From: Amycolatopsis acidiphila
Lineage (GTDB): Bacteria; Actinomycetota; Actinomycetes; Mycobacteriales; Pseudonocardiaceae
Assembly (NCBI RefSeq): GCF_021391495.1
Contig: NZ_CP090063.1
Coordinates: forward strand, 4,402,001 to 4,466,000
Reading direction: 5' to 3'
DNA length: 64,000 bases
The notes beneath the pieces are model-generated. The model ran no database searches. It was not told where the DNA came from and was given only the letters and a program-made list of their open reading frames with translations. Shown here one piece after another: positions 50,811-64,000 of the stretch (positions are counted from its first letter, which is position 1; each line of letters opens with the position of its first letter). The position numbers and the translations under genes were made by a program.

Positions 50811-50827
50811 CGGCGCGAGGAGGAACG

Positions 50828-51883
50828 ATGACGCAGGCAACCGCTCCCCTGCCCGCCGCGCCGGAGGCCGGCCGGGCGCCTGCCCGGCCGCGCTCCTTCG
50901 GGCGCCGGGTGATCGCCCGGCCCGAGCTGAGCTCGCTGCTCGGCGCCGTCGCGGTGTTCGCGTTGTTCTTCGCGGTCGCCCCGCCGTTCCGCGAGGCGGC
51001 GTCACTGTCCACTGTGCTCTATTCCAGCTCGACGATCGGCATCGTCGCGGTCGCCGTGTCGCTGCTGATGATCGGTGGCGAGTTCGACCTCTCCGCCGGG
51101 GTCGCGGTCACCAGCTCGTCGCTGACCGGGGCGATGGTGGCCTTCCAGCTCAACCTCGACGTGTGGGCCGGGGTGGTGGCGGCGCTGGTGCTGTCGCTGG
51201 GGATCGGGTTCCTCAACGGCTACCTCGTGATGCGCACGAAGCTGCCCAGCTTCCTGATCACGCTCGCCACGTTCCTGATGCTGCAGGGGCTCAACCTCGC
51301 GATCACGAAGCTGGTCACCGGCAACGTCGCCACCGACTCGATCGCCGACATGGACGGCTTCGACTCCGCCCGCGCGGTGTTCGCCTCGGAGGTGCACCTC
51401 GGCGGCGTGGCGATCAAGGTGACGGTGTTCTGGTGGATCCTGTTCCTCGCGATCGCCACCTGGGTGCTGCTGCGCACCAGGGCCGGCAACTGGATCTACG
51501 CCGTGGGCGGCCAGGCCGACTCCTCGCGCGCGGTGGGCGTGCCGGTCAAGCGCACCAAGATCGGGCTGTTCATGACGGTCGGGTTCGGCGCCTGGTTCGT
51601 CGGGATGCACCAGCTGTTCGCGTTCGACAGCGTCCAGTCCGGCCTCGGCATCGGCAACGAGCTGCTGTTCATCGCGGCGGCGGTGATCGGCGGCTGCCTG
51701 CTCACCGGCGGCTACGGCTCGGCGATCGGCGCCGGGATCGGCGCGCTGATCTACGGCATGACCACCCAGGGCATCGTCTACGCGGGCTGGAACCCGGACT
51801 GGCTGAAGTTCTTCGTCGGCGCGACCCTGCTGCTCGCGACCCTGCTCAACATGTGGGTGCGGCTGCGCACCTCGCGGAGGTGA
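50828..51883 (+). CDS. Sugar ABC transporter permease
   Basis: A 351-residue membrane protein of the RbsC/BPD_transp_2 family with about nine helices. Diagnostic are LLMIGGEFDLSAGVAVTSSSLTGAM, IGFLNGYLVMRTKLPSFLITLATFLMLQG and GGCLLTGGYGSAIGAGIGALIYGMTTQGI. ATG 50828 after GAGGA. It is 17 nt behind the binding protein gene and 7 nt ahead of the ATPase gene. Confidence 0.93.
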   Translation: MTQATAPLPAAPEAGRAPARPRSFGRRVIARPELSSLLGAVAVFALFFAVAPPFREAASLSTVLYSSSTIGIVAVAVSLLMIGGEFDLSAGVAVTSSSLTGAMVAFQLNLDVWAGVVAALVLSLGIGFLNGYLVMRTKLPSFLITLATFLMLQGLNLAITKLVTGNVATDSIADMDGFDSARAVFASEVHLGGVAIKVTVFWWILFLAIATWVLLRTRAGNWIYAVGGQADSSRAVGVPVKRTKIGLFMTVGFGAWFVGMHQLFAFDSVQSGLGIGNELLFIAAAVIGGCLLTGGYGSAIGAGIGALIYGMTTQGIVYAGWNPDWLKFFVGATLLLATLLNMWVRLRTSRR

Positions 51884-51890
51884 GGCGGCG

Positions 51891-52709
51891 ATGACCGCGA
51901 AACCCGTGGTGGAGCTCGACGGCGTCGGCAAGAGCTACGGCAACATCTCCGCGCTGCGCGGGGTCACCCTGACCGTGCGGGAGGCCGGGGTCACCTGCGT
52001 GCTCGGGGACAACGGCGCGGGCAAGTCCACCCTCATCAAGATCATCTCCGGGCTGCACGGCCACGACTCGGGGCGCTACCTGGTGGACGGCGAGGAGGTC
52101 CGGTTCGGCTCGCCGCGCGAAGCGCTCGACCGGGGTATCGCCGCGGTGTACCAGGACCTGGCGGTGGTGCCGCTGATGCCGGTGTGGCGCAACTTCTTCC
52201 TCGGCTCCGAACCGACGACCGGGGTGTGGCCGCTGCGGCGGCTCGACGTGCGCAAGATGCGCGAGACCACGGACGCGGAGCTGCGGAAGCTGGGCATCGA
52301 GCTGCCCGACGTCGACCTGCCCATCGGCAGCCTGTCGGGCGGGCAGCGCCAGTGCGTCGCGATCGCGCGGGCTATCTACTTCGGCGCGCGGGTGCTGATC
52401 CTCGACGAGCCGACCGCGGCGCTGGGGGTCAAGCAGTCGGGCGTGGTGCTCAAGTACATCGCCGCCGCCCGCGACGCCGGGCTGGGGGTCATCTTCATCA
52501 CCCACAACCCGCACCACGCGTTCATCGTCGGCGACCGGTTCGTGGTGCTGCGCCAGGGCGAGGTGGAGCTGGACACGGCGCGCGACGAGCTCACCCTCGA
52601 CGACCTGACCCACCACATGGCGGGCGGCGCCGAGCTCGACGCGCTCAAGCACGAGCTGGACCGGATCCAGGCGCCGGAGATGGGGGCGCTGCACGAGGCC
52701 GCCCGGTGA
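51891..52709 (+). CDS. Sugar ABC transporter ATP-binding protein
   Basis: A 272-residue ATPase with one ABC domain, whereas ribose-type importers often have two in tandem, so a homodimer is expected. Walker A is LGDNGAGKSTLIK, the Q-loop AVYQDLAVVPLM, the signature LSGGQRQCVAIARA and Walker B RVLILDEPTAALG; the H-loop is FITHN. ATG 51891 after GGAGGTGAGGCGG. The stop overlaps the following dehydrogenase start (GTGA). Confidence 0.94.
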   Translation: MTAKPVVELDGVGKSYGNISALRGVTLTVREAGVTCVLGDNGAGKSTLIKIISGLHGHDSGRYLVDGEEVRFGSPREALDRGIAAVYQDLAVVPLMPVWRNFFLGSEPTTGVWPLRRLDVRKMRETTDAELRKLGIELPDVDLPIGSLSGGQRQCVAIARAIYFGARVLILDEPTAALGVKQSGVVLKYIAAARDAGLGVIFITHNPHHAFIVGDRFVVLRQGEVELDTARDELTLDDLTHHMAGGAELDALKHELDRIQAPEMGALHEAAR

Positions 52710-53860
52710 CCGGGGTCGCGGTCATCGGCGCGGGCATGGCGGGCCGGGCGCACGCGGCGGCCTACCGCGCGGCGAGCACCGTCTTCGGCCTCGACCGGCC
52801 CGAGATCCGGCTCGTCGCGGTCGCCGACGTCAACACCGCGCTCGCCGAGGACGTCCGCCGCCGCTACGGGTTCGCGCGGGCCGAGGCGGACTGGCGCGCG
52901 CTCGCGGCGGCCGAGGACATCGACGCGGTGAGCGTCGTGGTCGCCAACGAGCTGCATCGCGAGCTGGTGGAAACCCTGCTGGCGGCGGGAAAGCACGTGT
53001 TGTGCGAGAAACCGCTGGCATCGTCGGTGGCGGACGGGCAGGCCATGGTCGCGGCGGCGCGGCGAAGCGATCGTGTCGCGGCGATCGGCTACACCTACCG
53101 CCGCTCCCCCGCCGTCAGCGCGATCCGGGACGAGCTGGCGAGCGGGCGGCTGGGCGAGCCGGTGCACTTCGCGGGCCGCGCGTGGTACGACTACGCACTC
53201 GACCCGCTGACCCCGATGAGCTGGCGCTACCGGGGCGGCGCCGGTACCGGCATCCTCGCCGACACCGGCAGCCACCTGGTGGATCTGGCGGAGTACCTGT
53301 GCGGCCCGGTCCGCGAGGTGCGCGGCGCGGTGTTCGCGACGGTGGTGCCCGAACGGCCGGTGCCGGCCGGGCCGACCGTGGGGCACGTGCGGGCCGAGCT
53401 GACGGGCGAGCGCTCGGCGGTGGAGAACGAGGACCTGGCGACCTTCACGGCGCGCTTCGCCGGCGGCGCGGTTGGCACGTTCTCCGCGTCCAGGGTCGCG
53501 CACGCGCTGCCGGACGGCCTGGGCTTCGACCTGTTCTGCGGCAACGGTTCCGCGGCATTCGACCTGCAGCGGGCGAGCGAGTTCGCGATCTCCGGCCCGG
53601 CGGGCGAAGGGCGCAGGCAGGTGTTCGCCGGGCCACGGCACCCGTATGTCCACAACGGACTCGCGGTCGACTCGCCCGGTGCTGGCCACGGCACCGGCGA
53701 CATGTTCACCTTCCAGGCCCGCGCGTTCCTCGACGAGATCGCCGGGCTCAAGGAGCTGCCGCCGTGCGCGAGCCTGGCCGACGGGCTGCACGGGCTGCGG
53801 GTGCTGGCCGCAGTGGTGGAGTCCGCCCGGCGGGATGGCGGGGCCGTCGAGGTGGCCTAA
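52706..53860 (+). CDS. Gfo/Idh/MocA-family oxidoreductase
   Basis: A 384-residue NAD(P)-dependent dehydrogenase of sugars or inositols. The N-terminal Rossmann motif is VAVIGAGMAGRAHAAAYRAA; the catalytic E-K-P motif is HVLCEKPLASSVADGQAM; the second domain has TYRRSPAVSAIRDELASGRLGEP and the Asp-x3-His (DTGSHLVDLAEYL). Coupled to the ABC ATPase by a GTGA overlap, so it likely oxidises the imported sugar or polyol. Confidence 0.93.
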   Translation: MTGVAVIGAGMAGRAHAAAYRAASTVFGLDRPEIRLVAVADVNTALAEDVRRRYGFARAEADWRALAAAEDIDAVSVVVANELHRELVETLLAAGKHVLCEKPLASSVADGQAMVAAARRSDRVAAIGYTYRRSPAVSAIRDELASGRLGEPVHFAGRAWYDYALDPLTPMSWRYRGGAGTGILADTGSHLVDLAEYLCGPVREVRGAVFATVVPERPVPAGPTVGHVRAELTGERSAVENEDLATFTARFAGGAVGTFSASRVAHALPDGLGFDLFCGNGSAAFDLQRASEFAISGPAGEGRRQVFAGPRHPYVHNGLAVDSPGAGHGTGDMFTFQARAFLDEIAGLKELPPCASLADGLHGLRVLAAVVESARRDGGAVEVA

Positions 53861-53869
53861 CCTCGCAGC

Positions 53870-54643
53870 ATGATCGGTGTGGTGCACCCCGGGGAGATGG
53901 GCGCGGCCGTCGCGCACCTGCTCGACGACGTCGCGTGGGCGTCGGAAGGGCGGAGCGCGGACACGCGGCGGCGCGCGGAAGGCCTCACGGACCTGGGCAC
54001 CGTCGCCCGGCTGAAGGCGGAATGCTCCGTGGTCCTGTCGGTGTGCCCGCCGCACGCCGCGGTGGCCACGGCGCAGGCGTTCGGCGACTACGACGGGCTG
54101 TACGCGGACCTCAACGCGGTGAGCCCGGCGACGGCGGCACAGATCGCCGGACTGGTGCCGCGGTTCGTCGACGGCGGCATCATCGGGCCGCCGCCGCATG
54201 CGCCCGGCACGACCCGGCTCTACCTCTCGGGCGCCGAGGCGGGCACGGTGGCGGCGCTGTTCGACGGCACGATCCTCGACGCCCGCCTCGCTCCCGACGC
54301 CTCGGCGCTGAAGATGGTCTACGCCGCCTGGACGAAGGGCACCACCGCGATGCTGCTCGCCGTGTGTGCGGCCGCCCGGAACCTGGGGGTCGAGGACGCG
54401 CTGACCGAGGAGTGGCGGCTGAGCCGGCCCGAGCTGCCCGCCCGTGCCGAGGACGCGGGCAGGCTGGGCCTGGAGCGCGGCTGGCGGTGGGCGTTCGAGC
54501 TGGAGGAGATCGGGCGCACGTTCGCCACGGCGGGGCTTCCGGACGGCTTCGGCGCCGCAGCCGCGGAGGTCTACCGGCGGCTGCCCCGCGACGGCGCTGC
54601 CGATCTGGCCGCCGCGCTCGCCCTGCTGTCCAGCTCCGCGTAG
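53870..54643 (+). CDS. 6PGDH-like dehydrogenase with DUF1932 domain
   Basis: A 257-residue oxidoreductase: an N-terminal NAD-binding domain (IGVVHPGEMGAAVAHLL) with VLSVCPPHAAVATAQAFGD, then a middle part carrying FVDGGIIGPPPHAPGTTRLYLSG (substrate site) and a helical C-terminal domain (LKMVYAAWTKGTTAMLLAVCAAARNLG). The Lys in ALKMVYAAWTKG is the likely catalytic residue. It follows the Gfo/Idh gene by 9 nt and is probably the last gene of the importer operon. Confidence 0.83.
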   Translation: MIGVVHPGEMGAAVAHLLDDVAWASEGRSADTRRRAEGLTDLGTVARLKAECSVVLSVCPPHAAVATAQAFGDYDGLYADLNAVSPATAAQIAGLVPRFVDGGIIGPPPHAPGTTRLYLSGAEAGTVAALFDGTILDARLAPDASALKMVYAAWTKGTTAMLLAVCAAARNLGVEDALTEEWRLSRPELPARAEDAGRLGLERGWRWAFELEEIGRTFATAGLPDGFGAAAAEVYRRLPRDGAADLAAALALLSSSA

Positions 54644-54701: not shown

Positions 54702-55325
54702 ATGAGCAATCCCCACCTCGACCAGCAGCCCGAGACCGCGGGGGCGCCGCTCGCCGGGGCGCGCGCGGCGGCGCTCGTCGTGCACGGCCGCGGCCAGACG
54801 CCGGACTACATGAAGGCCGTGCTCGACCGGGTCGCGCTGCCGGAGCTGGCGTACCTCCTGCCGTCGGCCGCGGACAACACCTGGTACCCGCAGAGCTTCC
54901 TGCAGCCGGTCGAGCAGAACCAGCCGCGGCTGGACCAGGCGCTGGAAACCGTGGCGGTCATGCTCGGCCGGATCGCCGGCGCCGGGGTGCCGCCCGAGCG
55001 GACGTTCCTCGTCGGGTTCTCGCAGGGGGCGTGCCTGCTCGCGGAGTTCCTCGTGCGCGACCCCCGCCGCTACGGCGGCGCGGCGATCCTCACCGGTGGG
55101 TACGTCGGCCCGGATCGCCGCTCCCCCAACGGTTCCCTCGACCACATGCCGGTGTTCCTGGGCACCAGCCGGCACGACGAGTGGGTGCCGCCCGCGCGCG
55201 CCGAGGAGACGGCGGAGCTGCTGCGCGCGATGTCCGCCGACGTGACGTTCCGGGTCTACGACGACCGGGAGCACCTGGTCAACGACGACGAGGTCGCGCA
55301 GGTCCGCCGCCTGCTCAGCGCCTGA
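54702..55325 (+). CDS. Alpha/beta hydrolase, phospholipase/carboxylesterase type
   Basis: A 207-residue serine hydrolase. The nucleophile is in LVGFSQGACLLAEF (G-x-S-x-G); Asp is in GTSRHDEWVPP and His in DDREHLVNDDE. It is similar to the MhqD-type esterases found next to ring-cleaving dioxygenases of the MhqO type, and here the convergent neighbour is such a dioxygenase with only 3 nt between the stop codons. ATG 54702 is used. The role is probably quinone or aromatic-ester handling, by inference. Confidence 0.85.
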   Translation: MSNPHLDQQPETAGAPLAGARAAALVVHGRGQTPDYMKAVLDRVALPELAYLLPSAADNTWYPQSFLQPVEQNQPRLDQALETVAVMLGRIAGAGVPPERTFLVGFSQGACLLAEFLVRDPRRYGGAAILTGGYVGPDRRSPNGSLDHMPVFLGTSRHDEWVPPARAEETAELLRAMSADVTFRVYDDREHLVNDDEVAQVRRLLSA

Positions 55326-55328
55326 CGC

Positions 55329-56279
55329 TCAGCGCGAGATCGGTTCCAGCTGCGCGAAGATCTCCTCGCGGCGGTCCTCGAACTGTTCGGGCAGCTGGAA
55401 CCGCGACCCCAGCTCCTGTGGCGACTCGTCACAGGTCCAGCCGCCTTCGGCGTGCGTGACCGCCAGCTCGAACAACGCGCCGCCGGGGGTGCGCACGTAC
55501 ACGCTCTTGAAGTACTTGCGGTCCTTCAGCTCCGAGATGTCGGTGTAGCCCACGCCCTCGATCTCGAACTTGAGCTCGTCCTGGTTCCGCAGCGTCTCGG
55601 CGTTCCACGCGAAGTGGTGGATGGTCCCCGACCCGTAGCGCCAGGTGCCCGGCTCCTCACGGCGGTTCACCACCAGCTCGACGGCACCGCCCTGCCCGGG
55701 CCCGCCGACCGTGTGCACCACCCGGTCGCCTTCCTCCACCAGCGACTTGCCGTAGAACGAGTCCGCCAGGAACTCGACCATGTTCTCCGGGTTCGACACG
55801 TGCACGCCGACCCCGTGGATGCCGTGGATCGCGTGCTCAGCCGGCACCCCGGCGCCGGTGTGACCCTCGCGCGGATCATCGTCGACGCCGACCATCACGT
55901 ACTCGATGCCGCACGGGTGCCGGAACAGCAACCGCCGCCGGCCGAACACCTCGGCATTCTCCGTCTCCACCCGGTGCCCGGACAGCCGGCGCTCCCAGTA
56001 GTCCAGCGAACCGGCCGGGACGGCCAGCTGCACCTCCCGCGCCTGGTTGGTGCCGCGGCGCCCGATGATGCCCGCCTTGGCGAACGGGAACGTGGTCAGC
56101 ACCGAGCTGGGATCGCCGTTCGCGTTGCTGTAGTAGAGGTGGTAGATCGGCAGGGAACCGTCGAACAGCACCGTCTTCTTGATGAACCGAAGACCGAGGA
56201 CGTCGACGTGGAAGTCGACGTCCTCCTGCGCCGAGCCGACCGACATGGTGACGTGGTGGCTGCCGTTGAGATGAGCCAT
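55329..56279 (-). CDS. VOC ring-cleaving dioxygenase (MhqO-like)
   Basis: A 316-residue extradiol-type dioxygenase of the glyoxalase superfamily, with two VOC modules. It starts with LNGSHHVTMSVGSAQEDVDFHVDVLGL; metal ligands are probably His 9 region (GSHHVTM), His in TIHHFAWNAE and Glu in GGALFELAVTHAEGGW. In Bacillus the MhqO type opens hydroquinone-like rings. It is the last gene on the minus strand of the van/cou region, 24 nt after the IclR gene, so it may be co-transcribed. Substrate unproven. Confidence 0.88.
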   Translation of the reverse strand: MAHLNGSHHVTMSVGSAQEDVDFHVDVLGLRFIKKTVLFDGSLPIYHLYYSNANGDPSSVLTTFPFAKAGIIGRRGTNQAREVQLAVPAGSLDYWERRLSGHRVETENAEVFGRRRLLFRHPCGIEYVMVGVDDDPREGHTGAGVPAEHAIHGIHGVGVHVSNPENMVEFLADSFYGKSLVEEGDRVVHTVGGPGQGGAVELVVNRREEPGTWRYGSGTIHHFAWNAETLRNQDELKFEIEGVGYTDISELKDRKYFKSVYVRTPGGALFELAVTHAEGGWTCDESPQELGSRFQLPEQFEDRREEIFAQLEPISR

Positions 56280-56303
56280 CGTCCGCTCCTCACTCCGTTG
56301 TGT

Positions 56304-57077
56304 CTACTGCGGAAGCCCGTGCCCCAGTGCCCGCGCGATACCCCGCGCGGCGGTCTGCACCAGCGGCGCCAGCGCCGCCGGTTCCGCGCCCTGCGCGCGG
56401 ACGACGAGTGACACCGCGGCGAGGACCGTGCCGTCCGCCCCGGTGATGGGCGCCGCCACCGACACGCTGTCGGTGGTGACCTGCCCGTAGCTGACCGCGT
56501 ACCCGTTGCGCCGCACGGCCGCGAGCGTCTCCCGCAGCTGGGTGGAGCCGGTGACGGTCTTCTCGGTGAACGCGTGCAGCGGCGCGCCCAGGATCTCCTC
56601 CTGCACCTGCGCCGGGGCGTGCGCGAGCAGCACCAGGCCGACGCCGGTGGCGTGCAGTGCGAACCGGCCGCCCACCCTGGTCAGCACCGGCACCGCGTGC
56701 CGCCCCGCGATGCGCTCCACGAACACCAGCTCGAGGCCCTCGCGCACGGCGAGCTGCACGTTCTCGCGGGTCACCTCGTAGAGGTCCTCCAGGAACGGCA
56801 TCGCGGCCTCACGCAGACCGAGCCCGCGCGGGGCGAGCGAGGCGACCTCCCACAGCCGCAGCCCGATCCGGTAGCGGCCGTCGGCGCCGCGTTCGAGCGC
56901 GCCCCAGGCGACCAGCTCGGCGGCCCGCCGGTGCGCGGTGGCCAGTGAGATCCCGGCACGGCGGGCCAGCTCGGACAGCGTCAGCGCCGGGCTCGCCGGG
57001 GTGAACGCGTCGAGCAGCGCGAGCACCTTGCTGGTGACCGAGCGGTTCGGGACCACACTGTCCTCGCCGGTGCGCAC
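56304..57077 (-). CDS. IclR-family transcriptional regulator
   Basis: A 257-residue regulator with an N-terminal winged helix (VTSKVLALLDAF, LSELARRAGISLATAHRRAAELVAWG) and an IclR effector domain (ENVQLAVREGLELVFVERIAG, VSYGQVTTDSVSVAAPI). The GTG at 57077 follows GAGGTGAGGC. It lies 16 nt downstream of vanB and 24 nt ahead of the dioxygenase. A perfect palindrome upstream of vanA is a likely target. Regulator of vanillate demethylase by inference. Confidence 0.9.
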   Translation of the reverse strand: MRTGEDSVVPNRSVTSKVLALLDAFTPASPALTLSELARRAGISLATAHRRAAELVAWGALERGADGRYRIGLRLWEVASLAPRGLGLREAAMPFLEDLYEVTRENVQLAVREGLELVFVERIAGRHAVPVLTRVGGRFALHATGVGLVLLAHAPAQVQEEILGAPLHAFTEKTVTGSTQLRETLAAVRRNGYAVSYGQVTTDSVSVAAPITGADGTVLAAVSLVVRAQGAEPAALAPLVQTAARGIARALGHGLPQ

Positions 57078-57093
57078 GCCTCACCTCGGCTCT

Positions 57094-58065
57094 CTACAGG
57101 TCCAGGACAAGCTTAGGCCCCCGGCAGCGCGACACGCAGATCATCATGGTGTCGTTCGCGGCCTGCTCCTCCTCGGTCAGCAGCGAGTCACGGTGGTCCG
57201 GCACCCCTTCCAGCACGGTGGTCTCGCAGGTGCCGCAGGTGCCCTCCTGGCACGACGAGAGCACGGTGATCCCGGCCTCCTCGACCGCGTGCAGGATCGA
57301 GTAGTCCGCCGGCACGGTGATCGTCACGCCCGACTGCGCCAGCTCGACCTCGAACGTGACCTTCTCGCCGTCGTCGGCGCCCTCCTTCGGGGAGAACCGC
57401 TCGACGTGCAGCGCGCCGGAAGGCCAGGCGGCACAACGCTGTTCGACCGCGGCGAGCAGCGGCTCGGGGCCGCAGCAGTAGACCGCGGTGCCCGCCCGCG
57501 GCTCGCCCAGCAACGTGTCCAGGTCGAGCAGGCCGGTCTCGTCCTGCGGGAAGACGCCGACGCGGTCGCCGTAGCGCTCGGACAGTTCCTCGCGGAAGGC
57601 CATCGAACCGCGCGACCGTCCACCGTAGACCAGCCGCCAGTCCGCGCCGCGCGCCTGCGCCGCGGCGATCATCGGCACGATCGGCGTGATGCCGATCCCG
57701 CCGGCGATGAACAGGTACCGCGGCGCGTCCACGAGCGGGAAGTGGTTGCGGGGACCGCGGATCCGCAGCCGGTCCCCGTCGGCGAGCGCTTCGTGCACGT
57801 GCCGCGAACCGGCGCGCCCGCCGGGCTCGCGCAGCACGGCGACCTGCAGGACCGACCGGTCCGCGGGGTCGCCGCACAGCGAGTACTGGCGCACCAGGTC
57901 CGGGCGCAGCACCAGATCCAGGTGCGCGCCCGGCTCCCACGGCGGCAGCGGCTCGCCCTCGGGGTGGCGCAGCGTCAGCCGCAGCACGCCGTCGGCGAGG
58001 ACTTCCTTGCGGGCCAGCAGGACGTCGAGCTCCAGCTCGGTCCGCGGCGTGGTCGGGGCACTCAT
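57094..58065 (-). CDS. vanB: Vanillate demethylase reductase (VanB-like)
   Basis: A 323-residue flavin/iron-sulfur reductase that feeds electrons from NAD(P)H to the oxygenase VanA. Domains in order: FMN-binding barrel (VRQYSLCGDP, about 65-74), NAD-binding domain (GGIGITPIVPMIAAA, about 120) and C-terminal plant-type ferredoxin domain with Cys motif CQEGTCGTC, then C in MICVSRC. The ATG overlaps the stop of the 71-residue gene (ATGA). RBS GCAGGAG. Belongs to the PDR/VanB family; the demethylase role follows from its pairing with a VanA-type oxygenase. Confidence 0.88.
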   Translation of the reverse strand: MSAPTTPRTELELDVLLARKEVLADGVLRLTLRHPEGEPLPPWEPGAHLDLVLRPDLVRQYSLCGDPADRSVLQVAVLREPGGRAGSRHVHEALADGDRLRIRGPRNHFPLVDAPRYLFIAGGIGITPIVPMIAAAQARGADWRLVYGGRSRGSMAFREELSERYGDRVGVFPQDETGLLDLDTLLGEPRAGTAVYCCGPEPLLAAVEQRCAAWPSGALHVERFSPKEGADDGEKVTFEVELAQSGVTITVPADYSILHAVEEAGITVLSSCQEGTCGTCETTVLEGVPDHRDSLLTEEEQAANDTMMICVSRCRGPKLVLDL

Positions 58066-58277
58066 GAAACTCCTGCGAGGTGTCGTTCGGGTGCGGGCGG
58101 TGCGGGCCGCGGCGCGTGGCCGTCGGGATGGCCCAGCAGCCACTCCCACAGCTCGACCGGGTCCTCCGACTCGTGCTCGGCGCCGCAGTGGCAGACGCCG
58201 ACGAGCACGTCGGTACCGAGCTTCCAGTGGACGCGGTACACGGTGTCGCCGTGCAGCATCTGCACGCGGCCGGTCAT
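58062..58277 (-). CDS. Small protein between vanA and vanB
   Basis: A 71-residue protein (MTGRVQMLHGDTVYRVHW onward) with a CHCGAEHESEDPVELWEWLLGH core containing a Cys-x-Cys. Both ends are coupled by 4-nt ATGA overlaps: its start to the vanA stop, its stop to the vanB start. I recognise no family. The precise packing suggests a stoichiometric accessory of the oxygenase, perhaps a metal or cluster protein. Confidence 0.7.
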   Translation of the reverse strand: MTGRVQMLHGDTVYRVHWKLGTDVLVGVCHCGAEHESEDPVELWEWLLGHPDGHAPRPAPPAPERHLAGVS

Positions 58278-59320
58278 TTCGCGGGGACCTTCGCCGCTTC
58301 GCCCGCCATCTTCTTGAGGATGCGGCGCGCGGCCAGTGCGCCGGTGTCGATGTTCACCGACAGCTCCTGGTAGCCCTCGGGCTCGGCCTGGATGACCTGC
58401 TCCAGGATGTCGAGCGCCTCGACGTCCTGGAGCACCACGGTGCGGTTGTTCTCGGCGAGGAAGTCCGTCACGCCCTGGTCCTCCAGCGCGAAGTCCCTTG
58501 CCACGGCCCAGAAGTCGTGGGTGCTGCTCTCGGTCTCCGGGGTGATCGCGTAGACGACCTCGACGTGGAAGCCGTTCGGGTCGCTGCCGTCGGGCTCGGG
58601 CAGCACGCCCACCGGCGCGATCCGGCTGTGCAGCAGGTACAGGCACGGCGGGTGGTACTCGATGTCCTGCCAGCGCGTGATGCGGCCCTCGACGCCCGTC
58701 GACTTCGCGTAGAACGGCGGGCAGGCCGCGTCGTCCATGTGGCGGCTGACGTAGAGGATCCGGTGCTCTTCGTCGACCTCGGTGGTGATCGGCGTGTCCG
58801 CGACCTCCGGCGTGCCGATGTAGCCGCCGTGCAGGTAGGTCTCGTGCGAGAGGTCGAGCAGGTTGTCCACCAGCAGCTCGTACCGCGCCTTGAGCGGCTC
58901 CAGCCCGCCCACCGTGGTGTAGGCGGGGTCGGCCAGCCACGGCGCCCGCGGGATCAGCCCCGGGTCCGCCAGGTCCTTCTCGCCGATCCACACCCACACG
59001 AAGGAGTCCTGCTCGACGACCGGGTACGCGGGCACCCGTGCGGTGCGCGGGATCCGGGCCTGTCCGGGCACGAACACGCACGTCCCGCCCTGGTCGTAGG
59101 TGAACCCGTGGTATCCGCACACGACCTTGTCGCCGTCGAGGCGGCTCTCGGACAGCGGGTAGCGGCGGTGCACGCAGCGGTCGGCCAGGCCCACGACCTC
59201 GCCGGCCTCGGTGCGGTAGAACACGATCGGCTCGCCGAGGATCGTACGGGCCAGCAGCTCGCGCCCGACCTCTTTGCCGTAGGCCGCCACGTACCACTGG
59301 TTACGCACGAACGAACTCAT
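58274..59320 (-). CDS. vanA: Vanillate O-demethylase oxygenase (VanA-like Rieske)
   Basis: A 348-residue Rieske non-heme iron oxygenase. The Rieske cluster ligands are CVHRRYPLS and CGYHGFTY (C-x-H, 16 residues, C-x2-H, about 50-75). The iron-binding helix is VDNLLDLSHETYLHGG (D-x2-H-x4-H type, about 158-172). The length and NQWYVAAYGKEVG start resemble VanA. RBS AGAGGAG before ATG 59320. A palindrome (59391-59407) lies upstream. It removes the methyl of vanillate as formaldehyde to give protocatechuate; other methoxyarenes are possible. Confidence 0.88.
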   Translation of the reverse strand: MSSFVRNQWYVAAYGKEVGRELLARTILGEPIVFYRTEAGEVVGLADRCVHRRYPLSESRLDGDKVVCGYHGFTYDQGGTCVFVPGQARIPRTARVPAYPVVEQDSFVWVWIGEKDLADPGLIPRAPWLADPAYTTVGGLEPLKARYELLVDNLLDLSHETYLHGGYIGTPEVADTPITTEVDEEHRILYVSRHMDDAACPPFYAKSTGVEGRITRWQDIEYHPPCLYLLHSRIAPVGVLPEPDGSDPNGFHVEVVYAITPETESSTHDFWAVARDFALEDQGVTDFLAENNRTVVLQDVEALDILEQVIQAEPEGYQELSVNIDTGALAARRILKKMAGEAAKVPAK

Positions 59321-59390
59321 CTGCGGCTCCTCTGGGGGTAGATGCGACGGTTTCACTGTCGCCGCCGCCACACCGCCGCGACCAGCAGTC

Positions 59391-59407
59391 TTTTCAGCTG
59401 CTGAAAA
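59391..59407. promoter_or_regulatory. Perfect palindrome upstream of vanA
   Basis: TTTTCAGC-T-GCTGAAAA, a 17-bp palindrome (8-bp arms, one central base), lies between couL and vanA, 71 nt before the vanA start and just after the couL stop. It is a good candidate operator for the IclR regulator encoded at the end of the van genes. Confidence 0.65.
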
Positions 59408-59408
59408 C

Positions 59409-60920
59409 TTATTTGAGGAGCCGCCGCAGGATCTTCCCGGTCGGGGACTTGGGGATCTCGCCGACGAACTCGACGAACCGCACCTTCTTGTAGGGCGCGA
59501 CGCGCTCGGCGACGAATGCCATGAGCGCGTCCGCGTCGACCGGGCGCGCGGTCACCACGAAGGCCTTCGGCGCCTCCCCGCCCTCGGCGTGCGGCACGCC
59601 GACGACGGCGGCGTCGAGCACGTCGGGATGGGTCAGCAGCACCGACTCCAGCTCCGCGGGCGCGACCTGGTAGCCCTTGTACTTGATGAGCTCCTTGAGC
59701 CGGTCGACCACCCAGAACACGCCGTCGGCGTCGACGCGCAGCAGATCGCCCGTGTGCAGCCAGCCGTCGGTGACCGTCGCCGCCGTCGCCGCCGGGTCGT
59801 CCAGGTACCCGGCCATCACCTGCGGGCCGCGGACGAGCAGCTCACCGGTCTCGCCCGCCGCGACGTCCTCGTCGGTGCCGGGCCGGACCAGCCGGGCCTC
59901 GGTGTTCGGCGAGAGCACGCCGATGCTGCCCGGCGGGGTCGTGGCGAAGGCGTCGTCGAACACCTGGTGCGTGCCCGGGCTCGCCTCGGTCATGCCGTAG
60001 CCCTGCCGGATCAGGCATCCCAGGCGTTTCTCCGCCCGCTCGGTCACTTCCACGTCCAGCGGCGCCGCGCCGCACAACGCGTACCGCAGCGACGAGAGGT
60101 CGTAGTCGTCGACCTCGGGCGCGGTGGCCAGGGTGAGCACCATGGGCGGGGCGAAGTAGGCGCGCGTCACGCGGTGCCCCGCCAGCGTCCGCAGGTACTC
60201 GGCGAGCTCGAACCGCGGCAGCGTGACGACGGTGGCCCCGCCGAGCAGGCCCGAGTTGAGGATGATCGTGTGCCCGTAGATGTGGAAGAAGGGCAGCACC
60301 GCCGCCTGCACGTCCTGCGGGCCGACGCGCCAGCCGGCCCGGGTCTGGGCGAGGTTGGCCACGAGGTTGCGGTGGGTGAGCCGGACGCCCTTCGCCGTTC
60401 CGGTGGTGCCGCTGGAGAACGGCAGCACCGCGACCGTCGTGGCCGGGTCCGGCCGCGGCGCGGGCGGGGTGCCGCCGGTGGGCAGCGCGGTCAGGGCGAG
60501 CACGTCCTCGACGCCGGCGCCGGCCGCGGCCTCGCGTGCCTTGTCCCTCGCCTCGTCCGAGGCGATCAGCATCTTCGCCTTGGCGGCGAGCAGCTGCCTG
60601 GTCACCTCCGGCACGGTCAGCACCGGGTTGACCGGGGTGACCGCGGCCCCGGTCGCGATCACGGCGTGCAGCGCGACCGCGTACCGCGGCTGGTTGTGGC
60701 TCATCAACGCGACGACGTCGCCGGGACCCACCCCGCGCGCGGCGAGCCCGGCCGCCGTCGCGTACACCGACGACCGCAGCTCGGCGTAGGTGATGCTCTC
60801 CCCGGTGCGGCCGTCGACCAGGGCGGGTTTGTCCCCGTACCGCCGCGCGCCGCCGATCACGTACTCGGTGAGCGTCACGTCCGGGATCTCGATGTCGGGA
60901 AGCGGGCTGCGGTGGAGCAT
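59409..60920 (-). CDS. couL: Hydroxycinnamate--CoA ligase (CouL/4CL-like)
   Basis: A 503-residue ANL-superfamily acyl-CoA synthetase. The ATP loop is LPFSSGTTGTAKGVRLTHRN, the adenylation motif QGYGMTEASP, the hinge TDGWLHTGDLLRVDADGVFWVVDRLKELIKYKGYQV (shown here by its parts) and the catalytic Lys is in PKSPTGKILRRLL. It resembles plant 4-coumarate:CoA ligases. It follows the MaoC gene on the same strand. Role: activates p-coumarate or ferulate to the CoA ester, inferred from the cou-type gene set. ATG 60920 is used. Confidence 0.85.
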   Translation of the reverse strand: MLHRSPLPDIEIPDVTLTEYVIGGARRYGDKPALVDGRTGESITYAELRSSVYATAAGLAARGVGPGDVVALMSHNQPRYAVALHAVIATGAAVTPVNPVLTVPEVTRQLLAAKAKMLIASDEARDKAREAAAGAGVEDVLALTALPTGGTPPAPRPDPATTVAVLPFSSGTTGTAKGVRLTHRNLVANLAQTRAGWRVGPQDVQAAVLPFFHIYGHTIILNSGLLGGATVVTLPRFELAEYLRTLAGHRVTRAYFAPPMVLTLATAPEVDDYDLSSLRYALCGAAPLDVEVTERAEKRLGCLIRQGYGMTEASPGTHQVFDDAFATTPPGSIGVLSPNTEARLVRPGTDEDVAAGETGELLVRGPQVMAGYLDDPAATAATVTDGWLHTGDLLRVDADGVFWVVDRLKELIKYKGYQVAPAELESVLLTHPDVLDAAVVGVPHAEGGEAPKAFVVTARPVDADALMAFVAERVAPYKKVRFVEFVGEIPKSPTGKILRRLLK

Positions 60921-60955
60921 CACTCGACTCCTCACTGAAGTCCGAGCAGCGGGAA

Positions 60956-61405
60956 CTAGCGGTAGAAGCGGGCGAGTAGCTGTGCGACGCAGGCCGGCTT
61001 GCCCGCACCCTCGATCTCGACCACGAGATCCGCGGTGATCTGGAGGCCGTCGCCGGCGACCTCCTCGACGTCGGCGAGCCTGCCTGCCGCCCGGATCCGG
61101 GCGCCGGCGGCCACCGGTGCGGGGAAGCGCACCTTGTTCAGGCCGTAGTTGACCTTCGTGGTGACGTCCTCGACGTCGAGCAGCTCCGTCCACAGTGGAA
61201 TGACCAGGGACAGCGTCAGGTAACCGTGCGCGATGGGCCCGCCGAAGGGGCCCTGCTTCGCCTTCTCGACGTCGACGTGGATCCACTGGTGGTCGTCGGT
61301 GGCGTCGGCGAAGGTGTCGATCCGGTCCTGGCTCACCGTCTTCCACCCACTGGTGCCCAGATCCGTGCCTGCGAGCTTCTTCAGCTCCTCGAACGTGGCC
61401 CTCAC
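60956..61405 (-). CDS. couM: MaoC-type enoyl-CoA hydratase (CouM-like)
   Basis: A 149-residue single hot-dog-fold protein. The hydratase motif is FADATDDHQWIHVD (about 35-48, Asp and His catalytic), followed by GPFGGPIAHGYLTLSL. Adds water across the double bond of hydroxycinnamoyl-CoA. The GTG at 61405 overlaps the couO stop (GTGA), so the two are coupled. The cou role is an inference from gene order. Confidence 0.85.
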   Translation of the reverse strand: MRATFEELKKLAGTDLGTSGWKTVSQDRIDTFADATDDHQWIHVDVEKAKQGPFGGPIAHGYLTLSLVIPLWTELLDVEDVTTKVNYGLNKVRFPAPVAAGARIRAAGRLADVEEVAGDGLQITADLVVEIEGAGKPACVAQLLARFYR

Positions 61406-62274
61406 GCCGTCTCCTCCAGCTTCAGCACCCGCACCGCGTTGTCCTTGAGGATCTTCGGCCGCACGTGCGGCTTCAGGTCGAGCTTCGCGAAGTCCGCGAG
61501 CCACCGGTCCGGGGTGATGAGCGGGTAGTCCGAACCGAACAGCACCTTGTCCTGCAGCAAGGAGTTCGCATAGCGCACCAGCTGCGGCGGGAAGTACTTC
61601 GGCGACCAGCCCGACAGGTCGATGTAGACGTTGGGCTTGTGCGTCGCGACGGCGAGCGCCTCGTCCTGCCAGGGGAACGACGGGTGCGCCATGATGATCG
61701 TCAGGTCCGGGAACCGCACGGCGACGTCGTCGAGCAGCATCGGGTTGGACAGCGACAGCCGCACTCCCCCGCCGCCGGGCATGTTCGCGCCGATGCCGGT
61801 CTGTCCCGTGTGGAACAACGCCGGGATGCCGTACTCCTGCGCCACTTCGAGCAGCGGGTCGGCGGTGCCGTCGTCCGGCGCGAAGTCCTGGATGCTCGGG
61901 TGGAACTTCAGCCCGCGCACGCCGTGGTCCTCGACGAGCCGCCGCAGCCGCCGCGCGCCCGCCCTGCCCTTGTGCGGGTCGATGCTGGCGAACGGGATCA
62001 GCACGTCGGAGTGCTTCGCGGCGCCTTCGGCGATCTCCTCGTTCGACAGCGCCTGATGCCCGCTGAAGTACTCGATGTCCACCGTGAACACCACCGCACC
62101 GATCCGGCGTTCCCGGTAGTACGCGGCGATTTCGTCCAGGGTCGGTCGTTTCGTGCCGGCGCCGAAGTGCTTCGAAGCCGCCTCGAGGAAGTCGTCGGGC
62201 AGCGACAGGTGCCCGTGCTCGTCGGTCTCGATGTGCACGTGCACGTCGATCGCGTCGAGTTGCTGGTGATCCAC
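61402..62274 (-). CDS. couO: Amidohydrolase-fold hydrolase (CouO-like)
   Basis: A 290-residue amidohydrolase_2 family protein. Metal-binding candidates are the His pair in DAIDVHVHIETD, His in LKFHPSIQ, His in LFHTGQTG and MAHPSFPWQDEAL, and Asp in VLFGSDYPL. In the Rhodococcus cou pathway the equivalent protein was proposed to cleave the beta-ketoacyl-CoA (retro-Claisen reaction) to give benzoate and acetyl-CoA. GTG 62274 has AAGGAG. It lies 10 nt after the SDR gene. Confidence 0.85.
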   Translation of the reverse strand: MDHQQLDAIDVHVHIETDEHGHLSLPDDFLEAASKHFGAGTKRPTLDEIAAYYRERRIGAVVFTVDIEYFSGHQALSNEEIAEGAAKHSDVLIPFASIDPHKGRAGARRLRRLVEDHGVRGLKFHPSIQDFAPDDGTADPLLEVAQEYGIPALFHTGQTGIGANMPGGGGVRLSLSNPMLLDDVAVRFPDLTIIMAHPSFPWQDEALAVATHKPNVYIDLSGWSPKYFPPQLVRYANSLLQDKVLFGSDYPLITPDRWLADFAKLDLKPHVRPKILKDNAVRVLKLEETA

Positions 62275-62284
62275 GATCTTCTCC

Positions 62285-63169
62285 TTATTCAGCCGGCAGG
62301 TTCTCGCCCACGGTCTCGAGCTCGGCGCCGACCGTCGTGGGCCACGCTTCGGCGATCGCGTCCGCACTCCAGCCACCCTCGGCGTAGGCGGCGGCGACCT
62401 GCTTCGGATGCGACCACAGCGAGAGCCGGTCACCGCCGATGCCGATGGCCTGCCCGGTGACGCCGGCGGCCGCGTCGGAGGCGAGGAACGCCACGAGCCC
62501 GGCGGCGTCCTCGGGTGTGCCGAACGCCAGCGCCCTGCGCGCGAACGACGGCACCGGCTCACCGGCTCGCAGCGCGTCGACGTAGCCCTTGAGCCCGGGA
62601 ATGGTCTCGGTCATCGCGGTGGCGGCGACCGGGACGACCGCGTTCACGGTGATCCGCGCCCTGGCCAGCTCCATCGACCAGGTCCGCGCGAACCCGACGA
62701 TGCCGGCCTTGGCCGCGGAGTAGTTGGTCTGCCCGAAGTTGCCGCGCTGCCCGGCCGGGGAGCCGACCAGGATCAGCCTGCCGCCCTCGCCCTGCTCGCG
62801 CATCCGCCGCACGGCCGCGCGGGCGCAGGTGAAGGTGCCGCGCAGGTGCACGTCGACGACCGTGTCGAAGTCGTCGTCGGTCATCTTCCACAGCACCTTG
62901 TCGCGCAGCACGCCCGCGTTGGTGACCAGCACGTCGAGCCGGCCGAACTCCCCGACCGCGCGGCGCACGAGCGCTTCGGCCAGCGTGGTGCCGCCCACCG
63001 CACCGACCTCGGCGACCCCGCCGACCTCCTTGGCCGCCGCCTCGGCGGCGTCCGCGTCCACGTCGTTGACCACGACCTTCGCGCCGTTCGCGGCGAGCTC
63101 CCTGGCGTAGGCGAGGCCGAGGCCGCGCCCGCTGCCCGTCACGATCGCGACCTTGCCGGTCAGGTCCAT
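62285..63169 (-). CDS. couN: SDR 3-hydroxyacyl-CoA dehydrogenase (CouN-like)
   Basis: A 294-residue short-chain dehydrogenase. The cofactor motif is TGSGRGLGLAYARELAANG, then VNDVDADAA and NAGVLRDK; the catalytic residues are in VGSPAGQRGNFGQTNYSAAKAGIVGF (Ser, Tyr and Lys of Y-S-A-A-K). The C-terminal extension (SHPKQVAAAYAEGGWSADAIAEAW) is typical of the beta-oxidation/MFE SDR group. First gene of the minus-strand operon; oxidises the 3-hydroxy-acyl-CoA made by the MaoC hydratase. Divergent from the MarR gene. Confidence 0.87.
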   Translation of the reverse strand: MDLTGKVAIVTGSGRGLGLAYARELAANGAKVVVNDVDADAAEAAAKEVGGVAEVGAVGGTTLAEALVRRAVGEFGRLDVLVTNAGVLRDKVLWKMTDDDFDTVVDVHLRGTFTCARAAVRRMREQGEGGRLILVGSPAGQRGNFGQTNYSAAKAGIVGFARTWSMELARARITVNAVVPVAATAMTETIPGLKGYVDALRAGEPVPSFARRALAFGTPEDAAGLVAFLASDAAAGVTGQAIGIGGDRLSLWSHPKQVAAAYAEGGWSADAIAEAWPTTVGAELETVGENLPAE

Positions 63170-63207
63170 GGGTCGAGCCTCCTCGTCGAACGTTCTGCCG
63201 AGAAGTA

Positions 63208-63245
63208 GATGTACTCAACAATCGTTATAACTGTCAACCATTGTT
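63208..63245. promoter_or_regulatory. couN promoter and dyad in the couN/couR gap
   Basis: On the minus strand TTGACA (63237-63232), 18-bp spacer, TACATC (63213-63208) forms a good promoter for the operon starting at 63169. AACAAT (63217-63222) and ATTGTT (63240-63245), separated by 17 bp, frame the -35 element and may bind the MarR product. Confidence 0.6.
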
Positions 63246-63300
63246 TCCGTCATGTGGTTTGCTGGCAGAATGGGCTCGCAGCTCACGGGGAGGAGGAGTC

Positions 63301-63738
63301 ATCGGCACTTCGGGGAACGGCACCCGCCCCACGCTCGACACGGACGCGGGGTTCCTGCTGGCGCGCGCGGGGGGCAAGGCCATCCGGGCGGTCAACCGGG
63401 CGCTCGAGCCGTTCGGCCTGCGCACCCGGCACTTCACCGTGCTGATGGCGGCCGCGGAGCACGGCGGGCTGTCCCAGCGAGAGCTCGGCGACCTGCTGGG
63501 CATCGACCCGAGCGCGGTCGTGGCACTCGTGGACGACCTGCAGCGGGCGGGCCTCGTCCGCCGCGACCCGCACCCGGAGGACCGGCGCACCCGGCTAGTG
63601 GTGCTCACCGGCGTGGGCGAGAAGACGTTCGACCAGGCGACGGAGGTGGCGCTGAAGGTCGAGGACGAGGCCTTCGCCCCGCTCGACGCCGGCGAGCGCG
63701 CCACCCTGATCGAGCTGCTGCGGCGCATCGCGCGCTGA
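63301..63738 (+). CDS. couR: MarR-family regulator of cou genes (CouR-like)
   Basis: A MarR repressor of about 145 residues. The HTH is VLMAAAEHGGLSQRELGDLLGIDPSAVVALVDDLQRAGLVRR, with the wing RDPHPEDRRTRLVVLTGVGEK. No ATG, GTG or TTG lies in frame near the very strong ribosome site GGGGAGGAGGAG (63287-63298); the first in-frame codon after it is ATC (63301), so a rare AUC start is proposed. The only alternative is a TTG at 63241 without a ribosome site. CouR in Rhodococcus releases DNA on binding p-coumaroyl-CoA. Confidence 0.82.
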   Translation: MGTSGNGTRPTLDTDAGFLLARAGGKAIRAVNRALEPFGLRTRHFTVLMAAAEHGGLSQRELGDLLGIDPSAVVALVDDLQRAGLVRRDPHPEDRRTRLVVLTGVGEKTFDQATEVALKVEDEAFAPLDAGERATLIELLRRIAR

Positions 63739-63805
63739 CCCGCCGTGTCTGCTGCGACATGGATCACGTCATCTCAATCGGTGAGCCTTGTCGCCCTATC
63801 GGGGG

Positions 63806-63835
63806 AAAATCAGTTAGCATAGGTCAACTAATTTT
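63806..63835. promoter_or_regulatory. 30-bp palindrome upstream of MFS gene, likely CouR operator
   Basis: AAAATCAGTT-N10-AACTAATTTT (63806-63815 and 63826-63835), with 9 of 10 arm positions matching, lies between the MarR gene and the MFS transporter gene. Its AT-rich arms stand out from the surroundings. Confidence 0.7.
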
Positions 63836-63877
63836 CCTCTTAGGTCAATGGCGACGTGAGCTTCCCTGGTTGGAGTG

Positions 63878-64000
63878 ATGGAAGTGCAGTCTGCCCAGCA
63901 GACGGTGGACGCCCCGGTCGAACCGCGCCGGCACAAGCGCACCTGGTCGGTCGACGAGCTCGGCCCGCGGTACAAGTGGATCGCGTTGTCGAACACGACG
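63878..64000 (+). CDS. couT: MFS transporter, N-terminus only (CouT-like)
   Basis: The first 41 codons of a transporter that runs past the window end (MEVQSAQQTVDAPVEPRR, then RYKWIALSNTT). The sequence KWIALSNTT marks the start of helix 1 of DHA2-type MFS exporters and importers in actinobacteria. ATG 63878 has GGAG only 3 nt away, so GTG 63884 with better spacing is possible. By position it may be CouT, the hydroxycinnamate transporter; only its tail end is missing evidence. Confidence 0.65.
   Translation, partial: MEVQSAQQTVDAPVEPRRHKRTWSVDELGPRYKWIALSNTT

Follow-up and report, generated by a model that had tools for sequence, protein, structure and literature searches.

Hydroxycinnamate and vanillate genes in a nine-gene string of Amycolatopsis acidiphila: a probable composite of two separately switched blocks

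The 64,000-nucleotide (nt) stretch of Amycolatopsis acidiphila DNA analyzed here (the window; bases 4402001-4466000 of an 8.18-Mb single-contig genome) carried nine minus-strand genes in a string (55329-63169), and the question was whether its hydroxycinnamate (cou) and vanillate (van) genes made up one joined module, as a preliminary description had proposed, or blocks under separate control. The order was couN, couO, couM, couL, vanA, an open reading frame (ORF) of 71 amino acids (aa), vanB, iclR, and a VOC-fold dioxygenase gene; all nine frames were open, and the successive gaps, with the most likely starts used, were 10, -4, 35, 88, -4, -4, 40, and 24 nt (the 40-nt gap using an iclR start one codon inside the GTG), so that the order and the limit of 88 nt given in that description proved exact. 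Family-level Pfam matches were obtained for eight of the nine genes, the exception being the 71-aa ORF. The string is real and functionally coherent, and the families and order of its genes would fit the proposed chain from ferulate through vanillate to protocatechuate; what has to be corrected in the first reading concerns the operon, the transporter, and ring cleavage. The string is probably composed of two adjoining, separately switched blocks, which would form a composite locus for lignin-derived hydroxycinnamates. Gene content, the palindromes and their conservation, and the positions of the PcaH and PobA genes are shown by the sequence; substrates, the direction of regulation, the pairing of proteins with palindromes, and the structure of the transcripts are deduced from it.

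The van block and the palindrome in the couL-vanA gap

The van block and the palindrome ahead of it were laid out as follows:

59392-59406, no strand: palindrome TTTCAGCAGCTGAAA, presumed VanR1/IclR operator, located 2 nt beyond the couL stop codon in the 88-nt couL-vanA gap
58274-59320, minus strand: vanA, Rieske oxygenase of vanillate O-demethylase, presumably of actinobacterial type II (PF19112 VanA_C, PF00355)
58062-58277, minus strand: small ORF of 71 aa with a CxC...P...WxW...HP core, member of an unnamed family
57094-58065, minus strand: vanB, reductase (PF00970 FAD_binding_6, PF00175 NAD_binding_1, PF00111 Fer2)
56304 to ~57056 (GTG; 57077 possible), minus strand: iclR, presumed VanR1-like regulator (PF01614/PF09339)

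The sequence comparison was applied to 80 vanA loci (the best 80 of 527, a choice favoring close relatives; in 65 of the 80, each flank reached at least 9.5 kb), and weaker hits were removed by bit-score thresholds in flank and locus mapping. The palindrome TTTCA-N5-TGAAA (at most one mismatch) was found before vanA in 37 of 81 sequences, namely 36 of the 80 relatives plus the window, and nearly all copies were placed 99-123 nt ahead of the same vanA point, with one at 73. Its occurrence followed the type of the neighboring regulator: an IclR at least 72% identical to that of the window was encoded at 33 of 35 loci with this palindrome vs 1 of 26 loci without it, in a comparison that covered 61 of the 80 loci (the 19 without a same-strand IclR hit being left out) and whose sequences were related to each other, so that its p-value cannot be read as a real probability. 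Because a conserved, IclR-tracking palindrome was present in the couL-vanA gap, the string is probably not one plain operon, and the claim of a single joined unit is set aside.

The iclR gene lay directly downstream of vanB on the same strand (gap of at most 40 nt), a same-strand IclR match was located downstream of vanA at 57 of the 80 loci, and the nearest NCBIfam entry of the product, scoring below the cut-off, was the PcaR/PcaU/PobR subfamily. According to parts of PMC9582017, the IclR protein VanR1 of Rhodococcus opacus PD630 is encoded directly after vanB, shares the vanB promoter, and activates PvanA on vanillate; the two systems share this placement of the IclR gene, while neither a cou junction nor a small gene is described in those parts for vanAB-vanR1 of PD630. 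The second regulator of the preliminary description was therefore of the right kind, and we infer that the iclR of the window encodes a regulator like VanR1 and that the boundary between the end of the cou block and the van promoter region falls there. The van block (vanA, the small-protein gene, vanB, and iclR) would convert vanillate to protocatechuate. Its expression would depend mostly on a promoter of its own, at which the VanR1-like IclR would act through the gap palindrome, and transcripts running on from couN may add a low level.

Several observations weigh against the two-block reading: (i) 44 of the 80 relatives lacked TTTCA-N5-TGAAA, 29 sequences carrying a looser CTTCCG-N5-CGGAAG palindrome (at most two mismatches) instead and 15 carrying neither; (ii) the palindrome was not exclusive to vanA, as it occurred at two places in the 8.18-Mb genome (control 0), the other one next to the genes of a different IclR and an aminotransferase; (iii) a consensus scan of 55200-63900 returned no sigma-70-type promoter (0.4 in shuffles) and no terminator (2.2 in shuffles), and thus backed neither a start within the couL-vanA gap nor an end ahead of it; (iv) the names CouL, CouM, CouN, CouO, VanA, and VanB were assigned at the family level; and (v) no homolog of the dioxygenase above 150 bits was found in the flanks of any of the 80 named vanA loci. 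Since the scan found nothing, the palindrome is the sole marker of the cou/van boundary; the silence of the scan was itself weak and uninformative evidence, because the conserved couN promoter region escaped it as well. The second TTTCA-N5-TGAAA copy (327774-327788) was considered as a further vanillate target and rejected; it has a second IclR gene on one side and an aminotransferase gene on the other, and it is more likely the site of that second regulator. By eye, the aminotransferase gene at this copy (L098 4775-4789) was class III-like.

The same gap and scan data bear on the alternative of a single nine-gene operon under CouR, with vanAB as its downstream part and the palindrome as a relic. 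All string gaps were at most 88 nt, three junctions overlapped, and 55200-63900 contained no terminator-like or sigma-70-type promoter-like site, which speaks for such an operon; but the palindrome was intact, lay at a similar distance from vanA as in the relatives, and retained the matching IclR type alongside, and a promoter scan that overlooks the conserved couN promoter region counts for little, so that a single operon is considered rather unlikely and the arrangement in two blocks is kept.

VanA and VanB formed a VanAB-type adjacent pair, a Rieske oxygenase with VanA_C and an FNR/ferredoxin reductase, with only the small ORF between them; vanB followed vanA at 77 of the 80 loci, and the order vanA-small gene-vanB was found at 76 of the 80. 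VanA contained CVH-x16-CGYH and DLSHETYLH, which we take to be its Rieske and iron-site motifs, and was 73-87% identical to the 80 kept relatives (83% in Rhodococcus rhodnii). It presumably belongs to type II, the clade of the VanA of RHA1 and of Streptomyces NL15-2K. The closest named vanA relatives were those of Amycolatopsis species, the best five at 84-87% identity.

The best solved relative of VanA was dicamba demethylase (3gb4), an O-demethylase of another substrate, and the VanA of Rhodococcus ruber R1, from another clade, takes syringate according to parts of PMC9867520; both would suit a VanA/VanB-like enzyme that demethylates a substrate other than vanillate, e.g. syringate. Against this, the vanA-x-vanB-iclR arrangement would fit SCAB_15301, 15321, and 15331 of Streptomyces scabies, as judged from tag spacing, and parts of PMC6904314 report that a vanA mutant of S. 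scabies (single exconjugant, complemented) accumulates vanillate. A non-vanillate substrate is thus regarded as very improbable, and vanillate is retained as the presumed substrate of the van block.

The cou block, its CouR-type box, and the transporter gene opposite

The cou block and the divergent genes had the following features:

62285-63169, minus strand: couN, short-chain dehydrogenase/reductase (SDR), presumed 3-hydroxyacyl-coenzyme A (CoA) dehydrogenase of the side-chain route (PF00106/PF13561), first gene after the CouR-type box
61402-62274, minus strand: couO, amidohydrolase for presumed hydrolytic acetyl-CoA release (PF04909, E 4.6e-53)
60956-61405, minus strand: couM, MaoC-type hydratase (PF01575), with a 4-nt overlap with couO
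59409-60920, minus strand: couL, AMP-forming acyl-CoA ligase, presumed hydroxycinnamate--CoA ligase (PF00501/PF13193)
63217-63245, no strand: CouR-type box covering the couN -35 box; AACAATCGTTATAACTGTCAACCATTGTT (plus strand)
63241-63738, plus strand: couR, MarR regulator, start codon uncertain (E 8e-23 to 3FM5/5CYV)
63804-63837, no strand: separate palindrome upstream of the transporter gene; GGAAAATCAGTTAGCATAGGTCAACTAATTTTCC
63875-64000 (start ~63875), plus strand: so-called couT, EmrB/QacA-type exporter of the major facilitator superfamily (MFS), 872 aa, running 2.5 kb past the window end

By Pfam, the RHA1-type cou set (ligase, hydratase, dehydrogenase, and amidohydrolase) was complete in one block. 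In the RHA1 route, as given in parts of PMC4737184, the CoA ester is made, hydrated, and oxidized, and acetyl-CoA is released, leaving vanillate or 4-hydroxybenzoate; by family, CouL would presumably make the CoA ester, CouM hydrate it, CouN oxidize it, and CouO free acetyl-CoA. The cou block would then be repressed by CouR and released by hydroxycinnamoyl-CoA, and it would yield acetyl-CoA together with vanillate (from ferulate) or 4-hydroxybenzoate (from p-coumarate).

The nearest solved structures to the couR product were those of R. jostii RHA1 CouR, 3FM5 and 5CYV (both at E 8e-23), in which Arg36 and Arg38 are needed for DNA binding according to parts of PMC4737184. Both arginine positions were kept (GLRTRHF aligned to GLRVRSY of 3FM5; the 3FM5 and 5CYV chains being offset by 2 residues in the numbering), as were those of Asp65 and Ser67, while Gln68 was replaced by Ala. 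The box pattern CAA[TC]NNTTGACANNNNNAA[CT]NATTG overlapped a -35 box (TTGACA) ahead of couN or couO (-35 and -10 boxes read by eye), and it was present once per locus at all seven genus loci with a couR at least 70% identical (the window, G001, G002, G003, G004, G011, and G012) and absent from all nine other loci scanned, one of which, G006, had a 43% couR match. Because the pattern was built from those seven loci, its presence there is by construction, and its absence elsewhere is the test. In a 20-kb stretch, it occurred once, between couN and couR.

Compared to the RHA1 cou cluster with its couN, couR, couT, and couH transcription units (parts of PMC4737184), the A. acidiphila locus shared a CouR-like regulator divergent from couN, an inverted repeat across the couN -35 box, and the amidohydrolase and ligase families, but it differed in that (i) the RHA1 box reads cATTGA-N5-TCAATg, from which the Amycolatopsis repeat departs; (ii) the transporter gene opposite was of EmrB/QacA type and had no box; and (iii) van genes followed directly. 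A CouR box upstream of both couN and couT, a trait of RHA1, was not found, the transporter promoter carrying another palindrome instead. Of the couR and couT genes that the preliminary description had placed opposite the string, couR was thus confirmed as a MarR gene near RHA1 CouR and a transporter gene was present, but the name couT did not hold. Its product was a DHA2 exporter-type MFS protein (TIGR00711 at 179.8 bits, below the cut-off of 230.2; PF07690) with three carboxypeptidase-like domains (PF13620 x3), and its upstream palindrome was near-identical by eye at 8 of 8 other genus loci, including G005, G015, and G016 without a couR match. The name couT is not accepted because the gene is of exporter type, lacks the CouR box found at RHA1 couT, and has its own palindrome.

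Two further observations concern this side of the locus. The fusion of the exporter to three carboxypeptidase-regulatory-like domains (L006 9875-12493) also adjoined van in L101, with no cou gene matched nearby. Beyond the transporter gene (L006 16127-18648), two tandem genes resembling styrene-monooxygenase-type flavin adenine dinucleotide (FAD) oxygenases were recognized by eye only.

The small protein encoded between vanA and vanB

Nothing else in the locus was as unexpected as the small protein, which accompanied close vanA genes, with few exceptions, throughout the samples searched. Its 71-aa sequence had no match in Pfam or NCBIfam, and among the best 120 of 1058 homologs, those with names were all called 'hypothetical protein'; the gene was often unannotated. 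It was encoded beside vanA at 78 of the 80 loci, the two misses being L048, which lies at a contig end, and L071, where the profile found nothing. The lengths were mostly 50-100 residues (range 46-130, plus one artefact of 467). An apparent fusion to VanB in L049 was rejected, since its 467-aa frame crosses an N stretch; in Streptomyces sp. NBC_00342, the ORF lay unannotated between vanA and vanB and was not fused. The small gene goes unmentioned in parts of PMC4737184, PMC6904314, PMC9867520, PMC9582017, PMC9618137, and PMC5209329.

In a 79-sequence alignment, D23, P40, W44, and H50 were invariant; C29, C31, and W46 were each present in 78 of 79, L047 being the one sequence without any of the three, and H54 was present in 72 of 79. 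Two further alignments were built: A1 with 22 of 31 diverse sequences, L047 not among them, and A2 with the window protein plus 43 of the 120 listed homologs. The predicted structure comprised three short strands and a helix (mean predicted local distance difference test score 79.8, core blocks 88-95); a fold search with this model gave 41 matches in the PDB at E of at most 10 and none at E of at most 0.001, and the sequence had no PDB match at E of at most 1.

The sequence comparison was also applied to three wider samples: (i) among 121 genomes sampled from the order, the small-protein profile matched 20, all of which had VanA at E of at most 1e-80, and the small gene was within ~130 nt of vanA in 19 of them; (ii) among 296 genomes of a phylum sample, the small protein was present in 7, all with vanA, and vanA was present in 8; and (iii) among 72,556 plasmid records, it was present in 4 and always adjoined vanA or a fragment of it, and VanA relatives were found in 54 records, most outside Actinobacteria. 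The actinobacterial plasmid VanA without a small-protein match included those of Streptomyces sp. NBC_01431 (58% VanA) and three Rhodococcus records. Close vanA genes without the small protein were found in L071, G086, and G315, the last two of which were also without vanB in the 5.5-6 kb fetched.

The twentieth genome of the order sample, G081, had a weak match, and the VanA-like gene ~1.1 kb away from it was 46% identical. Comparable weak forms were located near such VanA-like genes in L028 and L121 (G103), and no convincing form was located near those in L026 and L120 (G055). A diverged form was seen near a second VanA-like subfamily in L028, L119, and L121. Tentatively, and with slightly less than even confidence, actinobacterial type II VanAB may be a three-gene system with the small protein as a working third component, a diverged form of which would accompany the second VanA-like subfamily. 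Its role can only be guessed at: as a partner of the Rieske oxygenase, it might serve in metal-binding assembly, in electron transfer, or in handling the product.

Linkage of cou and van genes and the ring-cleavage genes

The joining of cou and van genes had been put forward as new, and this does not stand: couN or couO was found in the flanks (up to 10 kb) of 29 of the 80 vanA loci (24 on the same strand, 17 within 3.5 kb), and the two sets lie close together by tag in S. scabies (parts of PMC6904314), so that the cou-van region is known in substance. Several Micromonospora loci had the reversed order vanA-small gene-vanB-iclR and then couN-couO-couM, with match ends down to 92 nt apart (L052). 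According to the same parts of PMC6904314, VanA and VanB of S. scabies (SCAB_15301 and 15321) and the products of SCAB_15591-15621 (hydratase, ligase, amidohydrolase, and dehydrogenase) appeared in the proteome solely when ferulate was supplied, and transcripts of vanA, vanB, and iclR (15331) were induced by ferulate and not by p-coumarate. Both gene sets thus occupy one region there and vanA is mutant-tested, but they are ~26 tag steps apart and do not form one string. The exact nine-gene string was found in no other genome examined.

Among 19 genus genomes, strict cut-offs gave couO in 17, vanA in 8, and the dioxygenase in 9; the couO matches (E of at most 1e-70) were at least 83% identical in 13 genomes (window included) and 55-69% in 4. 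In 7 of the 8 vanA genomes, couO lay within ~3.5 kb of vanA on the same contig and strand, a closeness not attributable to chance because random placement in ~8-Mb chromosomes would not give it. Seven of the 8 (window included) carried couO and couL upstream of vanA, no more than a few kb away, and at the locus of the six of these other than the window, couN, couM, and couR were unmatched. Among the 8 vanA genomes, all mapped, the window alone had van and the dioxygenase gene joined to couN-O-M-L, and the full string was found in 1 of 19.

The order couN-couO-couM-couL was kept in G002, G003, and G011. In G011, it was followed 74 nt on by a vanB matched over 324 residues, with no vanA (L106 4599-5570). 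In G003, a van-block scar lay between couL and the esterase gene (L123 3015-3700), with vanB fragments of nt 495-529 at 91% and nt 900-953 at 78% nucleotide identity; the dioxygenase gene in it was truncated or frameshifted at either end. The G003 adjacency of the dioxygenase gene and couL was rejected as an independent cou-dioxygenase link, as two vanB fragments lie in the gap and the van block was lost there. On the simplest reading, a window-like string would be ancestral in the group and would have been lost piecewise.

The last gene of the string and its convergent neighbor were as follows:

55329-56279, minus strand: VOC-fold ring-cleaving dioxygenase of the PcpA/MhqO (hydroquinone) family
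54702-55325, plus strand: Abhydrolase_2 carboxylesterase/phospholipase (PF02230), convergent with the dioxygenase gene

The preliminary description had taken the dioxygenase gene as the terminus of the route, and this was not upheld: the gene was PcpA/MhqO-like, from a family for 1,4-dihydroxybenzenes, and PcaH and PobA were located elsewhere. Its best solved relatives were PcpA (4huz, 2,6-dichlorohydroquinone 1,2-dioxygenase; E 1.5e-70) and MhqO (3oaj; E 2.6e-43), with which it shared near full-length sequence, the A. acidiphila gene differing in its position behind a vanillate block; compared to 4huz, the HH (residues 8-9), IHH, and FE columns were kept, among which the iron ligands His, His, and Glu are presumably to be assigned. 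Of five genome matches to the PcaH family, none was within the string and one, at 6.445 Mb, was over the family cut-off, with a weaker match beside it taken as PcaG; PobA was over its family cut-off at 7.55 Mb. Because PcaH was over the cut-off there, the protocatechuate ring is most likely opened at 6.445 Mb, so that protocatechuate would probably pass to PcaHG, and 4-hydroxybenzoate first to PobA, both encoded elsewhere on the chromosome.

A paralog of the dioxygenase gene, 72% identical, was located at 5.78 Mb. By position, the paralog cluster (L007 7530-11719) ran AraC / PcpA/MhqO-like dioxygenase-alpha/beta hydrolase-HsaA-like flavin monooxygenase. In G002, an AraC / dioxygenase-hydrolase-HsaA-like monooxygenase cluster adjoined couL, with match ends 7 nt apart. 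Of the 14 other genus genomes that were mapped, 7 had the esterase gene (at least 67% identity) at their van or cou locus, and G002 had a match of 40%; by family and position, the esterase may be MhqD-like, and a similar dioxygenase-esterase association is known from the mhq genes of Bacillus. We read the dioxygenase as a hydroquinone-handling side branch, in which it and the convergent esterase would open hydroquinone-type by-products. An alternative would have it cleave methoxyhydroquinone or hydroquinone arising from decarboxylating hydroxylation of vanillate or 4-hydroxybenzoate, as a second, protocatechuate-free route; the PcpA/MhqO family of the enzyme and the G002 cluster next to couL would suit this, but no decarboxylating 1-hydroxylase was found within the string, to which this search was confined, the G003 adjacency is a product of van-block deletion and not independent, and MhqO-type enzymes are also known for quinone detoxification. 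Such a second route is doubtful, and the side branch is preferred.

By translation, the genes on the far side of the esterase gene (49812-54643) were a sugar-type ATP-binding cassette (ABC) transporter (binding protein, permease, and ATPase), a Gfo/Idh-like dehydrogenase, and a DUF1932 nicotinamide adenine dinucleotide (NAD)-binding protein. They apparently form a set of their own for the catabolism of a sugar or polyol.

Among the soluble monomers of lignin, ferulate and p-coumarate are major ones, and in engineered strains the rate is often limited by O-demethylation through VanAB. The locus packages the side-chain and O-demethylation steps, apparently with one operator each. Its fresh content lies mainly in the palindrome inside the string and in the small protein, still without a name, that goes with vanillate demethylation; should type II VanAB depend on this protein, constructs with only vanA and vanB may omit a component.

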